Shown: in pieces, positions 7,498 to 22,773 of the stretch
Layout of the letters: each line of letters opens with the position of its first letter
Position numbering within the stretch: position 1 is the stretch's first letter
IMG/VR virus record: IMGVR_UViG_3300021356_000134
Span: 1-27,130 of that record
Source of the DNA: a virus
Strand: one strand, 5' to 3'
Length of the DNA: 27,130 nucleotides
Position numbers and translations under genes: made by a program
The notes under the pieces: model-generated
Databases searched by the model: none
What the model was told of the DNA's origin: nothing
Seen by the model: the letters and a program-made list of their open reading frames with translations, nothing else

Positions 7498-10452
7498 TTA
7501 CTCACTAGACATGTAGTATTTTTGGAACTCTTCCATAAGGAAATCTATAGTAAACGCTTTCATGCAAGGAACCTCTCGGGGGTAACCCCGACATGGTTTA
7601 CCAACATTTCTTACCATAATACTTGCCCAACACCTACAGGGGTCAGGAGTCTTCACATGGTGATGGAGATCATATGAGGATACTTCTTCAGACGAACTAC
7701 CCCCTACTATGATCATTGCTGGCTTTCGTAACAAGTAACCAATATGGTTTGCTAACCCCTCCACTGCAACTACCCTTCTCATCCTTGAGAAACTATCAAT
7801 TAGTTCCTCCACAGAGTCACTCCTCTTATCCTCCACATCATTGAGTAATCTCTCACTCACATGACCTAGTTGGAAGCACCGGAACTTCTCAGATAGTCGG
7901 GAAACAAACTCTTGTAATATAGAAGAAGGGAGTTCTTTACTACGGAGTTTTGCTCCAGCATTTGAGTAAGGTACAATACCTAGAGTATGCGCCTTACCTC
8001 GGTGACGCTTCGTTCTCTTAGGTATCCATAGTTGGACATCCTTTTTAGAACCCCCCATCCCTTCTACAATGTGCGTCCCTTCCTCCCAACAAAGATTGTA
8101 ATCTATATACTCGTACTTTTTACGATCCACCTTCCCGGTCACAACTTTGATGTCAGGGAATGTTGCTCTAATGATATCCGCCATCACCGGAGAGGTATGG
8201 AAGGAAATAGGAATGTTTACTGACTCCTTGATCTTATGCAACACCGCAGTAGCCATTATTACGTCCCCGATCCCCTGTTCCCTAGATAAAGAGATTGTAG
8301 GAGGTAAACTCAAAGAGTTGGCGAAGAGCTTACGGAGTTCTTTACAATATACTGCTCCGACTGTTTCAGGGGAACACATCCTTTGTACCTTCTTCTGCAT
8401 CGCAGAGACTCTTCCGGGTACAGGAAAATCACCTTTCTTCATCCTTGCTACGATACGTTTCAAGGAAGTCTTACAATCCTGCCCATTACCTGTGAACTTC
8501 ACGAAAGTCAATTCTTTAGAGAATAATGAAGGTAGTGCGCCAACCTTCGTCGCGATAACAGGGGTACCTACCCAACCGGCTTCAAGAACAACCATTGGCA
8601 AAGCCTCTGCTTCTGATAACAGACATAAAGCATCACATGAGCGGAGAACTGTCCCTACGTTATCGGATGCATCAAGGAACACTACTTTCTCAGAACATCC
8701 GCTCTCATAGGCTATCCTCTGTAGGGTCTCGCGAGTAAGGCTATCGCTGTCGAGTCCTTGTATTACGAGGTTAGCATCAATGTCTCTCATAGCCCGTACA
8801 AGCCATGCTATTCGTTTGTTACTGTCAAACCTACCAACAAACCCAAGTATAGGTCGGTCCCCTGAAAAGAATTTATGCTTATTGCCTTCTATCTTGGATA
8901 GTGTAATTGGATTAGATACTGGAGAAGACCCGGGAATCTGTTCACATATACTAGGATTCACGCATAAAGTCTTGTCTATTACTGCCCGCCAATTTTCAGT
9001 GAACTCCTTCCCTTCAACTGGGTATGATGTGTGAACTACCCGCATGGTGACAGGTCTTCTCTTCAATGATCGAAGAGCAATACACAAAGATTCGTTCAAT
9101 CCATAGAAAAGGACGCAGTCAAAAGAAGCTAGATAGTCAGGGTCAATGTGATTATCCTCAAGGATAGTCGCGTCAAACTCAGACACTAACTCATGCTTGA
9201 TTGTCTCTTGATTCCGTACCCGATGATTGTTGAATGCAACTACCTCAAGATCGAAGTACCCTTTTAACTGGCGGGCGACTTCAAGGGTAGCCACTTCACC
9301 ACCACCCTTCAAGTAATGTGGGAAGGCTATCAACAGTCTCTGGTATCTTAGTAGATCATCAATGCCGCCAGTGGTGACGGGCGTGGTGTCTGTTGTGATG
9401 CAGGGAGGCGCTATTCCCAGCATGGAAGAAATGGCTCTGTACACCATTTCAACAGAGAGATTCTTCTGACAGGCCAACCCATTTCTGCAATTCTTAGACT
9501 GTAAGTAGACAGTACCACACGGACATTCTGATTGGACTGCGGTGACCGTAGGATACAACCTAGCACAGTTATTCTGTCGAGATGGTCCAAATAGCCCCAC
9601 TGTCGGTGTGCCTGATATACCGTTTACATGTAGAAAACATGAGTCCACACAGACTGCAAGGTCCGCTGCTTGACATAGTGCTACCTGTTGATCAACTCCT
9701 AGTGAAGATGCGTCAATAATATCTGACCCAAACCTCTTATTAAAGTCTCCCTTACCAAGTACGACCTTATTAAAATTTGCGCCCAGTTTCTTAAATAAGG
9801 TCTTCCAATTAGCATCGAACCAACGCCTGTGGGAAGCGGAGGCGTCTGTGTGGAACACAATGAGAGGTTTCTTCTCTGGTAACAACGCTCTAGTGGTAGG
9901 GGATAGTGTCACCCGGTCAATCGTAGGAAGTCGCAATACCGGGTTACTTATCCTAATAAACTGGAAAGCCCTATAATAGAAGCAGCCATCATATACTGTC
10001 TGGGGACCAGCTTTCAAGAAGTCAGCGAGGCTTAATACCACGTTAAATTTATGACGTTGTAGAGTGTGTGAGACCTCGTCTATTTCCTCAATCATCTCCA
10101 AGAAGGGAACCGCAGCAGGACTTGGCTTCATAGCCACAACGCAGGATCTCTGCTTTAAGTACCTTGCAACACTAGCAGCAATAAGAGCGTCTCCAATGCC
10201 CCCGGGAACCTCAATGAGAATAGTCATGCCTGACCAATCAGACGGTAGAGAAAGCGTGTAACTTTTAGTAGTAAGTTGGAGTCCGTGAATCCCCGTAGAG
10301 GGAACGTCGTGTATTTCATAGAAGAATCCTCGATTTAGAAGTTTCTCAGCTTCCTCGTCTGAGCAGGTAAAGGGAACACCTTCTTGTACTTGCCGCTTTG
10401 TGATAGGGGTAGTATACCCCCCTTTGCCGACTACCATGCATAATTTTTTCAT
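7498..10452 (-). CDS. Three-domain glycosyltransferase fusion (GT9-GT4-GT9)
   Basis: 984 residues, ATG at 10452 with AAGGAG seven bases upstream. Residues 1-55 form a small separate domain ending in EEAEKLLNRGFFYEI, like the short phage proteins found near capsid genes. Residues 77-345 are GT9 (heptosyltransferase-like): PGGIGDALIAAS at 83 and VDSCFLHVNGISGTPTVGLF near 265-285. Residues 375-690 are GT4: GFVGRFDSNKR and the EX7E region EAEALPMVVLEAGWVGTPVI near 615. Residues 715-975 are a second GT9-like domain with QGIGDVIMATAVL near 727 and a degenerate nucleotide-site motif (AVEGLANHIGYLLRKP). GT9 and GT4 enzymes transfer sugars from nucleotide donors. The gene sits between the capsid and adaptor genes behind the capsid terminator, so glycosylation of a virion protein or of the host surface is a plausible role. 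Confidence 0.9.
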   Translation of the reverse strand: MKKLCMVVGKGGYTTPITKRQVQEGVPFTCSDEEAEKLLNRGFFYEIHDVPSTGIHGLQLTTKSYTLSLPSDWSGMTILIEVPGGIGDALIAASVARYLKQRSCVVAMKPSPAAVPFLEMIEEIDEVSHTLQRHKFNVVLSLADFLKAGPQTVYDGCFYYRAFQFIRISNPVLRLPTIDRVTLSPTTRALLPEKKPLIVFHTDASASHRRWFDANWKTLFKKLGANFNKVVLGKGDFNKRFGSDIIDASSLGVDQQVALCQAADLAVCVDSCFLHVNGISGTPTVGLFGPSRQNNCARLYPTVTAVQSECPCGTVYLQSKNCRNGLACQKNLSVEMVYRAISSMLGIAPPCITTDTTPVTTGGIDDLLRYQRLLIAFPHYLKGGGEVATLEVARQLKGYFDLEVVAFNNHRVRNQETIKHELVSEFDATILEDNHIDPDYLASFDCVLFYGLNESLCIALRSLKRRPVTMRVVHTSYPVEGKEFTENWRAVIDKTLCVNPSICEQIPGSSPVSNPITLSKIEGNKHKFFSGDRPILGFVGRFDSNKRIAWLVRAMRDIDANLVIQGLDSDSLTRETLQRIAYESGCSEKVVFLDASDNVGTVLRSCDALCLLSEAEALPMVVLEAGWVGTPVIATKVGALPSLFSKELTFVKFTGNGQDCKTSLKRIVARMKKGDFPVPGRVSAMQKKVQRMCSPETVGAVYCKELRKLFANSLSLPPTISLSREQGIGDVIMATAVLHKIKESVNIPISFHTSPVMADIIRATFPDIKVVTGKVDRKKYEYIDYNLCWEEGTHIVEGMGGSKKDVQLWIPKRTKRHRGKAHTLGIVPYSNAGAKLRSKELPSSILQEFVSRLSEKFRCFQLGHVSERLLNDVEDKRSDSVEELIDSFSRMRRVVAVEGLANHIGYLLRKPAMIIVGGSSSEEVSSYDLHHHVKTPDPCRCWASIMVRNVGKPCRGYPREVPCMKAFTIDFLMEEFQKYYMSSE

Positions 10453-14614: not shown

Positions 14615-15331
14615 TCAGACTATTGAAATGTTAATGGGCACGGAAGATGTAGAAGCCAACCGTGCAGCAAGGAAATCATAAACATCTGCGTGCCTATGAT
14701 GATCCTTACCTTTTGTCCAGATAAATTTGGTATTGCCGTTATTGTCTGTAACACTTTCACGTACCGAAAATAACATCTCTTGAAGGTATTCGCCTCCAAG
14801 TAGGCTAGCAAAGTTTCTTGGTAGGATGTTGAGACCCGCCTTTAGGTCAGAAAATGTCTTATCTAAGATAGTAGTTCGGTCACAAGTAATGAAGTGTTGT
14901 TTCTTATCTACTTTCATAAGACGGTCGAGTCCATCTGATCCATACCTGTTCATGTATACTGCAAAAGGTGCTTCTGATTGAAACTCTTGTGCGATCTTTG
15001 CTTCAGGCATAGAATCAATCACCGCAAACTTTACATTATAACGTACTCCAATACTGATAAGATCTTCCTTGGATGGGATCTTACCAACGAACACCATCTT
15101 TCTACCACCATCTGGCATCATCTGGGATACCCGGACATCGAATACTTTACCCACGTCAATCCCCATGGAGCAAGGACCGGGGTGGAAATCCCCCTCAACG
15201 CAATAGTACTCTCCACCTTTCCGAGAGTACATCACGTAATCGTCTGTACACCTCTCAAGGAGTTCCTTGGTTACCTTGATTCCCCAACCAGAGTAACCAT
15301 GTCCAAGGACGGATGTCCAAAAATGCTTCAT
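14615..15331 (-). CDS. Terminase large subunit, nuclease half
   Basis: 238 residues if translation restarts at the ATG at 15331, which has only GGAG eleven bases upstream. The same frame is open without a stop back to the TAA at 15449, so the true C-terminal part begins upstream (PQNTDSGFEGYHISRL). It is the RNase H-like nuclease domain of the large terminase: MGIDVGKVFDV with Asp at about 59, FAVIDSMPE near 103, and the last acidic motif HHRHADVYDFLAA near 212-224. The domain cuts concatemeric DNA during packaging. All three acidic positions are kept, so this half does not look decayed. Confidence 0.85.
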   Translation of the reverse strand: MKHFWTSVLGHGYSGWGIKVTKELLERCTDDYVMYSRKGGEYYCVEGDFHPGPCSMGIDVGKVFDVRVSQMMPDGGRKMVFVGKIPSKEDLISIGVRYNVKFAVIDSMPEAKIAQEFQSEAPFAVYMNRYGSDGLDRLMKVDKKQHFITCDRTTILDKTFSDLKAGLNILPRNFASLLGGEYLQEMLFSVRESVTDNNGNTKFIWTKGKDHHRHADVYDFLAARLASTSSVPINISIV

Positions 15332-15448
15332 TAACTCAGTGTCTCCAACTGAGTTTCTGAAGTCTAGGTATAACTCAGAAAGTGAACTTAGTTTAGACTG
15401 TAAGCGAGAGATGTGATACCCCTCAAAACCGCTATCGGTATTCTGTGG

Positions 15449-15451
15449 TTA
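15449..15451 (-). other. In-frame TAA splitting the terminase large subunit
   Basis: Codons around it read GGC CAA TGG TAA CCA CAG AAT. The frame before and after is the same, and the conceptual protein runs from the ATPase half (GNPFERFGKGQW) to the nuclease half (PQNTDSGFEGYHISRLQ) without a gap, matching the linker of GpA-type terminases. Several other genes here end normally with TAA, so the codon is not reassigned genome-wide. Confidence 0.9.
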
Positions 15452-16267
15452 CCATTGGCCTTTCCCGAATCTTTCAAAAGGGTTTCCACAATGAGGGCAA
15501 ATGGGGTAAAGCTTCTTACCCAGCTTCCAATCTTTATCCATCAGTTCATAGTCAACAGGTACGCCATCATTGTCCAATATTGGAGTCACAATTACCTTGA
15601 ACCAATCGAGAGGGTTCCACTCCCCGCAACTACATTCGACAAACCATTCTCTTCTATCCGAGAGCGAGTACTCCTCTTCGATACCCACCCCCTGTGCGGT
15701 AGGGTTAGCTATTAACCTAAGTATCTGGTATGGACTAGCTCCAACACGGTCCTTGGCGTAACTTATGTTACTAAGAGTACATTCGTCATACTCGTCTACT
15801 GTCAAAACGTCCGCTGGGAACTCTCGGAAATCAGAACGGACGTTTGATCCAACAAACTTGATGACGCCCTTGCCAAAGTTCTTCATGGTCGTGTTATCGA
15901 AAAACCCTGAAGACAAGTACTTCTTGTACTCAGGTACCTGCTGAATACACTTGTCTATGCGGTTCTGGACATACGATGTCTTGTGATCGTGCTTCGGCAG
16001 AACATAGAAGATACTCAGGCCACAAGCTGCCTGCGAGAAGAGATCTACAATAGCCCACTCAGTCTTGAAGCTCTGCGTCGAACCTTTGATGACCACCTTT
16101 CGAGAGAGAGTATTGTAAAGTGATAGTAGGTGATCACATTTGTCGAAATTCATCTTCTGATTACGAGTGTTCCGGTGGTGGTTCTTCGCGAAGTCTACTC
16201 GCTTATGCCTAACTTGTAGTAACTTCTCTGCTACTGCAAGTTGAGATTTATCTAACCTATCTATCAT
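15449..16267 (-). CDS. Terminase large subunit, ATPase half (GpA-like)
   Basis: 272 residues, ATG at 16267 with GAGG upstream. Walker A is the variant KGSTQSFKT at residues 61-69 following VVI. Walker B is VLTVDEYDE near 152-160. A Cys pair set near the end (CSCGEW and CPHCGNPF) matches the zinc-containing linker of GpA-type terminases. The ATPase drives DNA into the prohead through the portal. The half ends at an in-frame TAA, and the rest of the protein continues in the same frame at 14615-15448. Without readthrough the motor would lack its nuclease. Confidence 0.88.
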   Translation of the reverse strand: MIDRLDKSQLAVAEKLLQVRHKRVDFAKNHHRNTRNQKMNFDKCDHLLSLYNTLSRKVVIKGSTQSFKTEWAIVDLFSQAACGLSIFYVLPKHDHKTSYVQNRIDKCIQQVPEYKKYLSSGFFDNTTMKNFGKGVIKFVGSNVRSDFREFPADVLTVDEYDECTLSNISYAKDRVGASPYQILRLIANPTAQGVGIEEEYSLSDRREWFVECSCGEWNPLDWFKVIVTPILDNDGVPVDYELMDKDWKLGKKLYPICPHCGNPFERFGKGQW

Positions 16268-20197: not shown

Positions 20198-20231
20198 TTA
20201 GTTGCCAAAATTCAACGGAAGGAATTGTAAA

Positions 20232-20807
20232 ATGTCAGTAGTTAATCATAGATTAAAAACCACGTTCGTGCATGTCCCTAAGACCGCAGGGGTAGCTATT
20301 TGCACTTCACTAGGACTTCGTATTGGAGGTCACCGACGTTTCCAAGATATGCGTAGGCGTACCCCGGAAAGTTATTTTGTGTTTTCAGTAGTTCGTAACC
20401 CTTGGGACAGGTTGGTGTCGGCTTACACCTATTTCAAATCAGGCGGTAGGGGGTTCCCTAATGATAAAGCTATGCAACGCACTTTATCACCTTTTAAGAC
20501 TTTCGCTGGTTTTTGTGAAAGCATAAGCCCTGAGTTGATAGCACAGTGGACAAAGATTGTCCCCCACTTTCTTCCTCAGGTATACTGGAGCGACCCTCGT
20601 ATAGACAAAGTCTGTCGATTCGAGAATATAAAGGAAGACTTTGCCGAGGTGTGTTCTCACATTGAAACTGGTGGTGTCCCTCTTTTACGTCGAAATGTGA
20701 GTGACCATGCTAGGTATACCGAGTACTATGACAGTAGCTCTCAGGAGAAGGTTGCTAAGATCTACAATAGCGACATTCAGACCTACAATTACAAATTTGG
20801 AGATTGA
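20232..20807 (+). CDS. PAPS-dependent sulfotransferase
   Basis: 191 residues from the ATG at 20232 (AAGGAA upstream); a TTG at 20202 is less likely. The 5'-phosphosulfate loop is FVHVPKTAG (residues 12-20), with the catalytic-site Lys 17. The 3'-phosphate motif is VVRNPWDRLVSAY (53-65), both typical of the Sulfotransfer_2 family, which acts on carbohydrates. The C-terminal part contains RFENIKEDFAEVC, also usual in the family. The acceptor is unknown. The next gene, ten codons' worth of ribosome-site spacing or less away, encodes APS kinase, which makes PAPS, so the two form a donor-plus-transferase unit. Phage glycan or host surface polysaccharide are plausible acceptors. Confidence 0.88.
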   Translation: MSVVNHRLKTTFVHVPKTAGVAICTSLGLRIGGHRRFQDMRRRTPESYFVFSVVRNPWDRLVSAYTYFKSGGRGFPNDKAMQRTLSPFKTFAGFCESISPELIAQWTKIVPHFLPQVYWSDPRIDKVCRFENIKEDFAEVCSHIETGGVPLLRRNVSDHARYTEYYDSSSQEKVAKIYNSDIQTYNYKFGD

Positions 20808-20809
20808 GT

Positions 20810-21304
20810 ATGGTTATTTGGCTTACAGGCTTGTCTGGTTCTGGGAAGAGTACTTTAGCAAAAGAGTTAGCTAAAGTGCTGCCCCGAGCATTCTTAGTAG
20901 ACGGAGATGATCTGAGGAAAGGTCTTTGCAATGACTTGGGGTTCGACGCAGAATCCCGAAACGAGCAATCACGTAGGGCAGCGGGAATAGCAAAGATAGC
21001 AGACGCAAACGTTTGCACTGTCCTTTGCTCTATCATAACCCCCTTTGAGAAGACCCGTGAAATGGTAAGAGCAATACTGTCCGAGAACGACCTTCGGGTA
21101 GTGTATCTAAGTACACCCATTGACGAGTGTCAGCGCAGAGATCCTAAGGGACTATATGCGAAGGCAGCGGCAGGAGAAATAAAGGACTTCACAGGTGTGG
21201 ACAGCGCATTCGAGGTGCCAAGTCATTACGACTCAAAAGTTGACACGACTGACAAGACGGTCAAGCAATGCGTAGATAAAATAATATCTGACCTAAGGTT
21301 GTAA
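20810..21304 (+). CDS. cysC: Adenylylsulfate (APS) kinase
   Basis: 164 residues, ATG at 20810 with GGAG seven bases upstream inside the sulfotransferase end. It phosphorylates APS to PAPS with ATP. P-loop GLSGSGKST at 7-15; VDGDDLRKGLCNDLGF near 31-47; SRNEQSRRAAGIAKI near 50-64; and the family signature RDPKGLYAKAAAGEIKDFTG near 107-126, with substrate-loop residues intact. Length matches short CysC enzymes with no ATP-sulfurylase domain, so APS must come from the host. A GCAAACGTTTGC box lies in the gene (encoding ANVC). All key residues are present, and activity is expected. Confidence 0.95.
   Translation: MVIWLTGLSGSGKSTLAKELAKVLPRAFLVDGDDLRKGLCNDLGFDAESRNEQSRRAAGIAKIADANVCTVLCSIITPFEKTREMVRAILSENDLRVVYLSTPIDECQRRDPKGLYAKAAAGEIKDFTGVDSAFEVPSHYDSKVDTTDKTVKQCVDKIISDLRL
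21005..21016. promoter_or_regulatory. GCAAACGTTTGC palindromic box 6, inside cysC
   Basis: Perfect 12-bp copy inside cysC. It is the only copy without the leading T, having C instead. Confidence 0.6.
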
Positions 21305-21326
21305 CTTAGCAAGCTTATGCTATATT
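21299..21326 (+). promoter_or_regulatory. Candidate sigma-70-type promoter
   Basis: TTGTAA (21299-21304), a 16-base spacer and TATATT (21321-21326), in the 58-base gap between cysC and the zinc-ribbon gene. It would start a transcript carrying the sigma-like gene and the downstream nucleotide genes. Confidence 0.5.
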
Positions 21327-21362
21327 GGTTAGGAAGTACTCAAAAAAAAAGACGAGGAAACA

Positions 21363-21629
21363 ATGGAACTAAATTCAGACCAAATTAAAAAACTCCGTAA
21401 TAAGGGACTAGGCCACTCTGTGTTATTAGCCCTAGAAGGACTTTGCCCTACCTGCGGTGATGCAGTTAACATTGACGATATTGCAGAAGCTGATGAGCTT
21501 TTACTGTACAATGCTTTTGGTATTTGCTTGGACTGCATCATCATGCACAAAGAAGAAGACCCGCCAGATCTTGTGGCTCTTTGTGAACAAAGAGCCTTAG
21601 AACATTTCAAGGAAACATTCGGGTGCTGA
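21363..21629 (+). CDS. Small zinc-ribbon-like protein
   Basis: 88 residues, ATG at 21363 with GAGG upstream. Two Cys pairs, CPTC (residues 28-31) and CLDC (56-59), are separated by a helical, acidic linker, and a helical C-terminus follows. It lies directly before the sigma-like gene, whose GTG start overlaps its stop. Such a neighbour could bind RNA polymerase or modulate the sigma factor, but this is speculation. The family is not recognised. Confidence 0.6.
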   Translation: MELNSDQIKKLRNKGLGHSVLLALEGLCPTCGDAVNIDDIAEADELLLYNAFGICLDCIIMHKEEDPPDLVALCEQRALEHFKETFGC

Positions 21630-22126
21630 CCCTCGAACTTAGTAAGACAGAGGGAATAGTAAAAAAACTAATTCATTCTCTAGGCAAAGATCTCCTTCTA
21701 AGCTACACTTTCGAGGATATCGTTCAAGAGACTTATCAATTACTACTCCACGAGCATCACCGATACGACGAGTCACGAGGGAAGTGGACCACATTCGTAA
21801 GGGCGGTTACTACAACATGCCTGTCCCGGCTCCGTGCCCAAAGTAATAAAGGACCGCAGCTAGTTCTCTGTAGTTTCTCACATGCTGAAGATGAAGGTGT
21901 TGATTGGGTAGAACGCTTAGTAGCACCTACTCCTCGCTGCCCTTTTCTATCGTATGACCTCGCAGTGGCTATTAGTAGGTTACCTGAGAATAGCCAGAAG
22001 GTCGTGCAAGCATTTATGGATAGACAAAGACAAGAGACCACGGCTGAACAGCTTGGTCTTTCACGTTCCCGTATAGCCCAGTTGCAAAAACAAGCATTCA
22101 AACAGATGAGAGAGGAACTTTCCTAA
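21623..22126 (+). CDS. Sigma-70 family RNA polymerase sigma-like factor
   Basis: 167 residues, GTG at 21623. Residues 25-75 resemble region 2 (FEDIVQETYQLLLHEHHRYD, then KWTTFVRAVTTTCLSRLRAQ). The C-terminal SRLPENSQKVVQAFMDRQRQ, then TAEQLGLSRSRIAQLQKQAF, is a region 4 helix-turn-helix. There is no region 1 or 3, as in ECF factors. It may redirect host RNA polymerase to the late promoter upstream of 19415. The coupling to the methyltransferase gene by TAATG and to the zinc-ribbon gene by overlap shows one operon. Confidence 0.8.
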   Translation: MLTLELSKTEGIVKKLIHSLGKDLLLSYTFEDIVQETYQLLLHEHHRYDESRGKWTTFVRAVTTTCLSRLRAQSNKGPQLVLCSFSHAEDEGVDWVERLVAPTPRCPFLSYDLAVAISRLPENSQKVVQAFMDRQRQETTAEQLGLSRSRIAQLQKQAFKQMREELS

Positions 22127-22773
22127 TGGCTAATTGGTTCAAACGAAGAGGAGGTAGAGAGAACTTTCAATGGCTGGCACCCACATTTAAGGATCGCCCC
22201 TTTAGTTATCTGGAGTTGGGCGTTTTCCAAGGGGATTCGCTTGCTTGGGTTGCTGAGAACATCGCTACCCATCCTGACTCTTCGTGCGTAGGAGTGGACC
22301 CATGGCTACCCATGGCGAAACGTGACCAAGAGAACATGAATATGATCATGCAGCAAGCCATTGATCGTATAGCAGAGTTCTCACAAGTAAAACTGCGACG
22401 GCAGTACTCTTCCCAATACCTAAGAAGAACTAAGAAGGTAAAGAAAGACGGACCATTCGACTTTGTGTACATTGACGGAGATCATTACGCACCTTTTGTA
22501 TTGGAAGACACTGTCCTTGTTTGGCCACACATTAAAGACGGTGGAGTTCTTCTATGGGATGACTACGGACTCAACTCACGTCGCCCACAGCGCCGACGTA
22601 ATCTGGGAGTGGAGACCGCAGTAGCTTCTTTCCTAAAATGTTTTACTGAGGGGGATTGCTTTGAGATCCTCGATCTACCTCAAGACTATCAGTTTGGAGT
22701 ACGGAAACTGAGAGATGAACGATCAATTCAAATAGACCAAACCGGCACTAAGATACGGGGACAACAACTATGA
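22126..22773 (+). CDS. Class I SAM-dependent methyltransferase (Methyltransf_24-like)
   Basis: 215 residues. Motif I is SYLELGVFQGDSLAWVAENI near 27-46 (the usual E-G-G loop is ELGVFQGDS). An acidic second motif is CVGVDPWLP near 53-61, and PFDFVYIDGDHYAPFVLEDT near 108-127 is the diagnostic Methyltransf_24/class I motif, followed by LWPHIKDGGVLLWDD-like sequence (here VWPHIKDGGVLLWDDYG). These enzymes often methylate sugars or small molecules. There is no DNA-recognition domain and no NPPY motif, so it is not an adenine DNA methyltransferase. It may act on the glycan with the sulfotransferase and glycosyltransferase; this is inference. Confidence 0.85.
   Translation: MANWFKRRGGRENFQWLAPTFKDRPFSYLELGVFQGDSLAWVAENIATHPDSSCVGVDPWLPMAKRDQENMNMIMQQAIDRIAEFSQVKLRRQYSSQYLRRTKKVKKDGPFDFVYIDGDHYAPFVLEDTVLVWPHIKDGGVLLWDDYGLNSRRPQRRRNLGVETAVASFLKCFTEGDCFEILDLPQDYQFGVRKLRDERSIQIDQTGTKIRGQQL

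Follow-up and report, generated by a model that had tools for sequence, protein, structure and literature searches.

A conserved sulfotransferase and APS kinase gene pair in a phage genome fragment, a probable PAPS-supply and sulfation unit

In rhizobia, NodPQ and NodH combine the synthesis of PAPS with a sulfotransferase for the Nod factor, NodH acting on an oligosaccharide. The phage gene pair described here resembles this arrangement in that a dedicated supply of PAPS would be encoded together with a sulfotransferase, but NodPQ includes an ATP sulfurylase while the phage unit has the kinase only. The sulfotransferases of cyanophages, DLP6, RSL1, SIO1 and others have the same fold as the enzyme from our phage. 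No APS kinase was found beside the sulfotransferase at the DLP6 locus, and we know of none beside those of cyanophages, RSL1, SIO1 and the others. Phage sulfotransferases are known, without an assigned function (PMC10580990). APS kinase genes have also been reported in phages, as cysC auxiliary metabolic genes (PMC10914622, PMC9529941), which our phage kinase resembles; however, in those studies they are described as assimilation genes, and the word 'sulfotransferase' is absent from both main texts. In the papers searched for phage sulfotransferases with APS kinase or PAPS, no description of such a pair was found; viral cysC (filed as an assimilation gene) and phage sulfotransferases were already known.

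The window, which is the whole stretch of DNA analysed, is a 27,130-base linear IMG/VR record from an uncultured tailed phage and probably a fragment. Its structural genes (tape measure, capsid protein, portal and terminase) form a leftward module, and a rightward gene set, with the sulfotransferase as its first gene, opens at about 20.2 kb. This PAPS-dependent enzyme of the Sulfotransfer_2 family (191 aa; 20232-20807, plus strand), assigned by family matches, motifs, predicted model and fold, runs from ATG 20232 to a TGA stop at 20805-20807. Its likely ribosome site, AAGGA (20219-20223, plus strand), was read from the sequence and lies in a stretch that is kept in the sister phage. The cysC-type APS kinase (20810-21304, plus strand) is identified by family matches and motifs, and its ATG at 20810 is two bases past the sulfotransferase stop. 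The adjacency and the position of the kinase ribosome site within the sulfotransferase end had both been given in the preliminary description and were confirmed: GGAG at 20799-20802 (plus strand) is kept in three relatives and doubles as coding sequence for the conserved C-terminal Phe-Gly-Asp of the sulfotransferase. The junction from sulfotransferase to kinase reads TTTGGAGATTGAGTATGG. A TTG at 20804 is a possible alternative start, at which the sister phage has CTG; because ATG 20810 is common to all three relatives, the kinase was taken as 164 aa from that position.

Two genes follow the pair. The first (21363-21629, plus strand) encodes 88 aa that include two CxxC pairs, and is a neighbour with no known part in sulfation; the second encodes a sigma-70-like factor recognised by its matches (21623-22126, plus strand), a neighbour outside the sulfation chemistry. 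A Methyltransf_24 family methyltransferase comes next (22126-22773, plus strand), and nucleotide genes (ThyX and DUF4406) lie further downstream of the pair. The whole span 20232-22773 had been described as one cassette; this holds for the pair, but the span also contains the 88-aa and sigma-like proteins, which had gone unmentioned. Promoter and terminator scans gave signals not clearly above those of shuffled sequences.

The recurrence of the pair in related phages, on which the earlier claim had been made to depend, was observed in two related contigs only, as well as in the other viruses discussed below. In the sister contig G001 (15.3 kb), the gene order is as in the window, with 82% identity for the sulfotransferase and 86% for the kinase over the 63 residues held before the contig ends. 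In G082 (65.5 kb), which was found via its portal protein, the sulfotransferase is 51% and the kinase 67% identical, the junction is the same, and the 88-aa gene and then the sigma-like gene again follow the pair; G082 also has a second sulfotransferase. Raw pN/pS was used, as dN/dS could not be computed because synonymous sites were saturated. For the sulfotransferase, the values were 0.15 against the sister and 0.43 against G082, and for the kinase 0.12 and 0.26, within the range of these phages' other genes. Both genes are thus under purifying selection. The more distant G083 (portal 52%), a contig that may be incomplete, has no APS kinase and only a weak sulfotransferase-like match. Annotated phages gave portal and capsid relatives below 35% identity only, from many hosts, which points to no particular host for the phage.

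The kinase matches PF01583 (E 1.8e-46) and exceeds the curated equivalog cut-off of TIGR00455 apsK (166.4 bits against 138.7) and that of PRK03846 (170.9 against 163). The P-loop, the DGD, the Arg pair and the K-G-L-Y...FTG motif are present, and almost every motif position matches other APS kinases. The enzyme had been called intact, which the cut-off and motifs bear out except for two unusual residues: in the R-x-E-N stretch Gln replaces the usual Asn, and in I-S-P the usual Ser gives way to Thr, both also in G082. We take these two positions to be APS contacts in APS kinase structures. Other viral APS kinases vary at them as well. The replacements may give the kinase a different substrate preference or rate; activity on APS is nevertheless likely, as predicted from the sequence. 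A search of viral contigs for close relatives with the kinase alone returned nothing, and an alignment was needed to find its relatives. Matches in the records of 'Pseudomonas phage Y4' and of two faecal 'Bacteriophage sp.' were set aside, since the region looks bacterial rather than phage; deposited 'phage' records with such a bacterial-looking APS kinase region are OQ572406.1, MT838634.1 and MT839805.1. By eye, two viral APS kinases (L095:12058-12768 and L097:7022-7732) have an N-terminal extension resembling a DUF2061 membrane domain.

For the sulfotransferase, the match to PF03567 (E 2.1e-9; 38.3 bits against a cut-off of 22) is accompanied by one to phrog_3347, named 'galactose-3-O-sulfotransferase' (E 1.1e-17). 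The sequence alone had no match in the PDB and a profile gave weak ones only, so a predicted model was used. The AlphaFold2 model covers all 191 residues (pLDDT 94.8, pTM 0.90). Foldseek alone found no PDB match below E 0.001, and matches in BFVD, among the phage sulfotransferases named above, reached E values as low as 2e-10. With VIA-align, the closest PDB fold was heparan sulfate 2-O-sulfotransferase 4ndz (Z 10.4, rmsd 3.4, 164 residues), followed by 3-O-, N- and cytosolic sulfotransferases at Z 8.8-9.9. The 5'-phosphosulfate loop (PKTAG) and the 3'-phosphate motif (RNPWDRLVSAY) are present; across 37 viral sulfotransferase sequences, H34, R55, N56, S63, Y162 and Y166 are invariant and K17 is Lys or Arg. 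With at least 528 related stretches in viruses, the family is common among them. In one such relative (L004/L005, 9770-11374), the sulfotransferase domain opens a 534-aa protein that has a further, unassigned C-terminal half. As read from the sequences, the phage has both enzymes, each with its main nucleotide-binding motifs, and they are conserved as a coupled pair.

Pairing of the two genes is not confined to these relatives, and occurs in unrelated viruses too. Kinase and sulfotransferase are directly adjacent in three further viral contigs (G012, G013 and G040) and also in G081, where they stand at the end of the contig; in G045/G046, about 2 kb or less separates them. Among non-redundant viral kinase loci, with proteins matched by two models counted once and with two of the sulfotransferase families resting on a small seed set, sulfotransferases made up 15 of 531 ORFs within five genes of the kinase and 1 of 275 at six to eight genes (Fisher p 0.011). 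The paired kinases are spread over several branches of the kinase tree, and because this gives five label changes, of which the starred branches force at least two, the pairing has probably been made, or lost, more than once.

In cells, an APS kinase was present at 6 of the 80 nearest sulfotransferase loci. A single 380-aa protein of Pedobacter segetis (L216:4425-5567) joins an APS kinase (residues 5-170) to a sulfotransferase (188-377) and adjoins a GT2 gene, and in Helicobacter valdiviensis (L210) the order is cysD, cysN, a transporter-like gene, cysC and sulfotransferase. Both couple PF01583 with PF03567 as the phage does, and their sulfotransferases are 31-32% identical to that of the phage; unlike the phage genes, the Pedobacter enzymes are fused and the Helicobacter ones stand in a full cysDNC set, both in bacterial genomes. 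An ORF of L241 was rejected as a further fusion, being two neighbouring genes. A unit of PAPS supply and sulfotransfer, made up of the two phage genes, is well supported.

The reading that we consider probable is a two-gene sulfation unit, in which the kinase would make PAPS from host APS and the sulfotransferase would use it on an acceptor, most likely the sugar of a glycan. ATP sulfurylase of the host would supply APS, the APS kinase would phosphorylate it to PAPS, and the coupled sulfotransferase would transfer the sulfuryl group from PAPS to an acceptor hydroxyl, most likely on a glycan sugar. This reading predicts that both enzymes are active, that they rely on the host for APS and that the acceptor is a sugar. 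The phage had been said to supply its own PAPS-making step, which applies to the second of the two steps, the kinase; no ATP sulfurylase (PF01747) was found in the window (G000), itself a fragment, or in G082, and the pair would for this reason need APS from the host, unless a source of it is encoded in the part of the genome outside this fragment.

Other viruses may have a source of APS of their own. Of the Pfam families encoded beside viral APS kinases, the commonest is a nucleotidyltransferase about 130 residues long, which is adjacent to, overlapping or fused with the kinase, at either kinase end, in about 20 of about 58 non-redundant loci; none was found in the window, G082 or G083. Loci with such an HxGH protein of about 130 aa adjacent or fused to the kinase are L016, L022, L023, L030-L032, L034, L035, L043, L046, L051, L057, L060, L062, L068, L077, L078, L086 and L088. 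Its model (pLDDT 93.3) has an adenylyltransferase fold near the phosphopantetheine and NMN adenylyltransferases (Z 12.8-14.3). The main rival is NMN adenylyltransferase activity, and the NCBIfam models for that enzyme match far below their cut-offs. That the protein is repeatedly paired with APS kinase, and at some loci with sulfotransferases too, suggests a candidate APS-forming enzyme and hence a possible compact viral PAPS synthase.

A wider proposal would be that viral cysC as a class serves mainly sulfation, some copies with a sulfotransferase and others with the APS-making nucleotidyltransferase, and that in this phage the sulfated glycan is made by a 984-aa glycosyltransferase (7498-10452, minus strand). 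We hold this as tentative and unlikely. The glycosyltransferase had been described as having three domains, of which a GT9 match (residues 191-312) and a GT4 match (residues 529-649) were recovered and the third was not confirmed. No relative was found among annotated phages. Its gene sits between those of the capsid protein and the head-tail adaptor, an order kept in all four contigs, and from this position a glycan of the virion may fairly be guessed as the target; sulfation of the host surface is ranked level with it, and the glycan may also belong to a soluble molecule. The same glycosyltransferase occurs in G083 without the kinase, which weakens its tie to sulfation, and as maker of the acceptor it is a possible candidate only.

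Returning to the two-gene sulfation unit, its acceptor could instead be a small molecule, a lipid or the tyrosines of a phage or host protein. This is unlikely, although cytosolic SULT structures nearly tie with the carbohydrate sulfotransferases, being within one Z unit of the top match, so that the fold leaves the acceptor class undecided, and no glycosyltransferase adjoins the pair in the window phage. The families to which the enzyme belongs, Sulfotransfer_2 and the PHROG named for galactose, speak for a sugar, as do the glycan gene sets in which its nearest relatives are located. Viral relatives adjoin GT25, GT11, GT2, NodZ and capsule genes and other sulfotransferases; further Sulfotransfer_2 proteins account for 15 of their 59 neighbours, and glycan genes, two Methyltransf_24 among them, for many of the remainder. 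Beside the nearest cellular relatives, 10 of 60 neighbours match GT4-type glycosyltransferases, with GT2, sulfotransferase, Kdo kinase and lipid A acyltransferase genes also found. Because viral and cellular relatives both neighbour glycan genes, a sugar acceptor is likely by gene association. The initial label of a carbohydrate-type sulfotransferase fits the family and gene neighbourhood; in fold, the SULTs are nearly equal. A cluster of three sulfotransferases was also seen in a 484-kb uncultured phage (L013, LR756508; 4600-12322), surrounded, by eye, by GT25-like, other glycosyltransferase-like and Methyltransf_24-like proteins.

It is very unlikely that the kinase serves sulfur assimilation, with PAPS passing through sulfite to cysteine and phage protein, and that the sulfotransferase is an unrelated neighbour. 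Viral cysC is filed under assimilatory sulfate reduction in viromes (PMC10914622, PMC9529941, PMC10134843). However, G082 gave no gene of the cysH/cysD type (PF01507, covering CysD-type proteins and PAPS reductase), and among 76 other viral APS kinase records PF01507 exceeded the cut-off in only 10; sulfation is favoured by the conserved junction with the sulfotransferase, by the recurrence of the pairing and by the fused cellular protein. Modification of DNA bases by the pair, as proposed for some phage glycosyltransferase/sulfotransferase systems (Iyer 2013, as cited in PMC10829341), is hardly credible, for although ThyX and DUF4406 lie downstream, none of the scanned genes was recognised as a base hydroxylase or hydroxymethylase, and the ThyX match is to an ordinary thymidylate synthase.

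Ecological studies routinely place viral cysC among the genes of sulfur assimilation, and the conserved coupling of kinase and sulfotransferase offers an alternative, testable reading, that the phage raises PAPS to sulfate something. The pair is also a small, expressible two-gene system for asking what phage sulfotransferases, which are abundant in viral sequence collections, act on.

The preliminary description had also counted the methyltransferase (PF13578, E 4.8e-19) as part of the cassette, which did not hold. In the window, the 88-aa and sigma-like proteins stand between it and the pair; in G082, the sigma-like gene runs directly into the DUF4406 gene, and no Methyltransf_24 match was found anywhere in the 65.5-kb record. 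G083 does have a Methyltransf_24 gene, placed between those of the capsid protein and the glycosyltransferase. Because of its absence from G082 and this other position in G083, the methyltransferase is not a constant member of the unit; a role alongside the glycosyltransferase is possible.

Within the structural module, the gene for the terminase large subunit (14615-16267, minus strand) is interrupted in frame by a single TAA; the sister contig reads CAA at that point. Recoding of the stop codon was rejected, as TAA is the commonest stop of the other genes. The split gene is a sequencing error or a defective copy; in the relatives, the terminase large subunit is one open frame.
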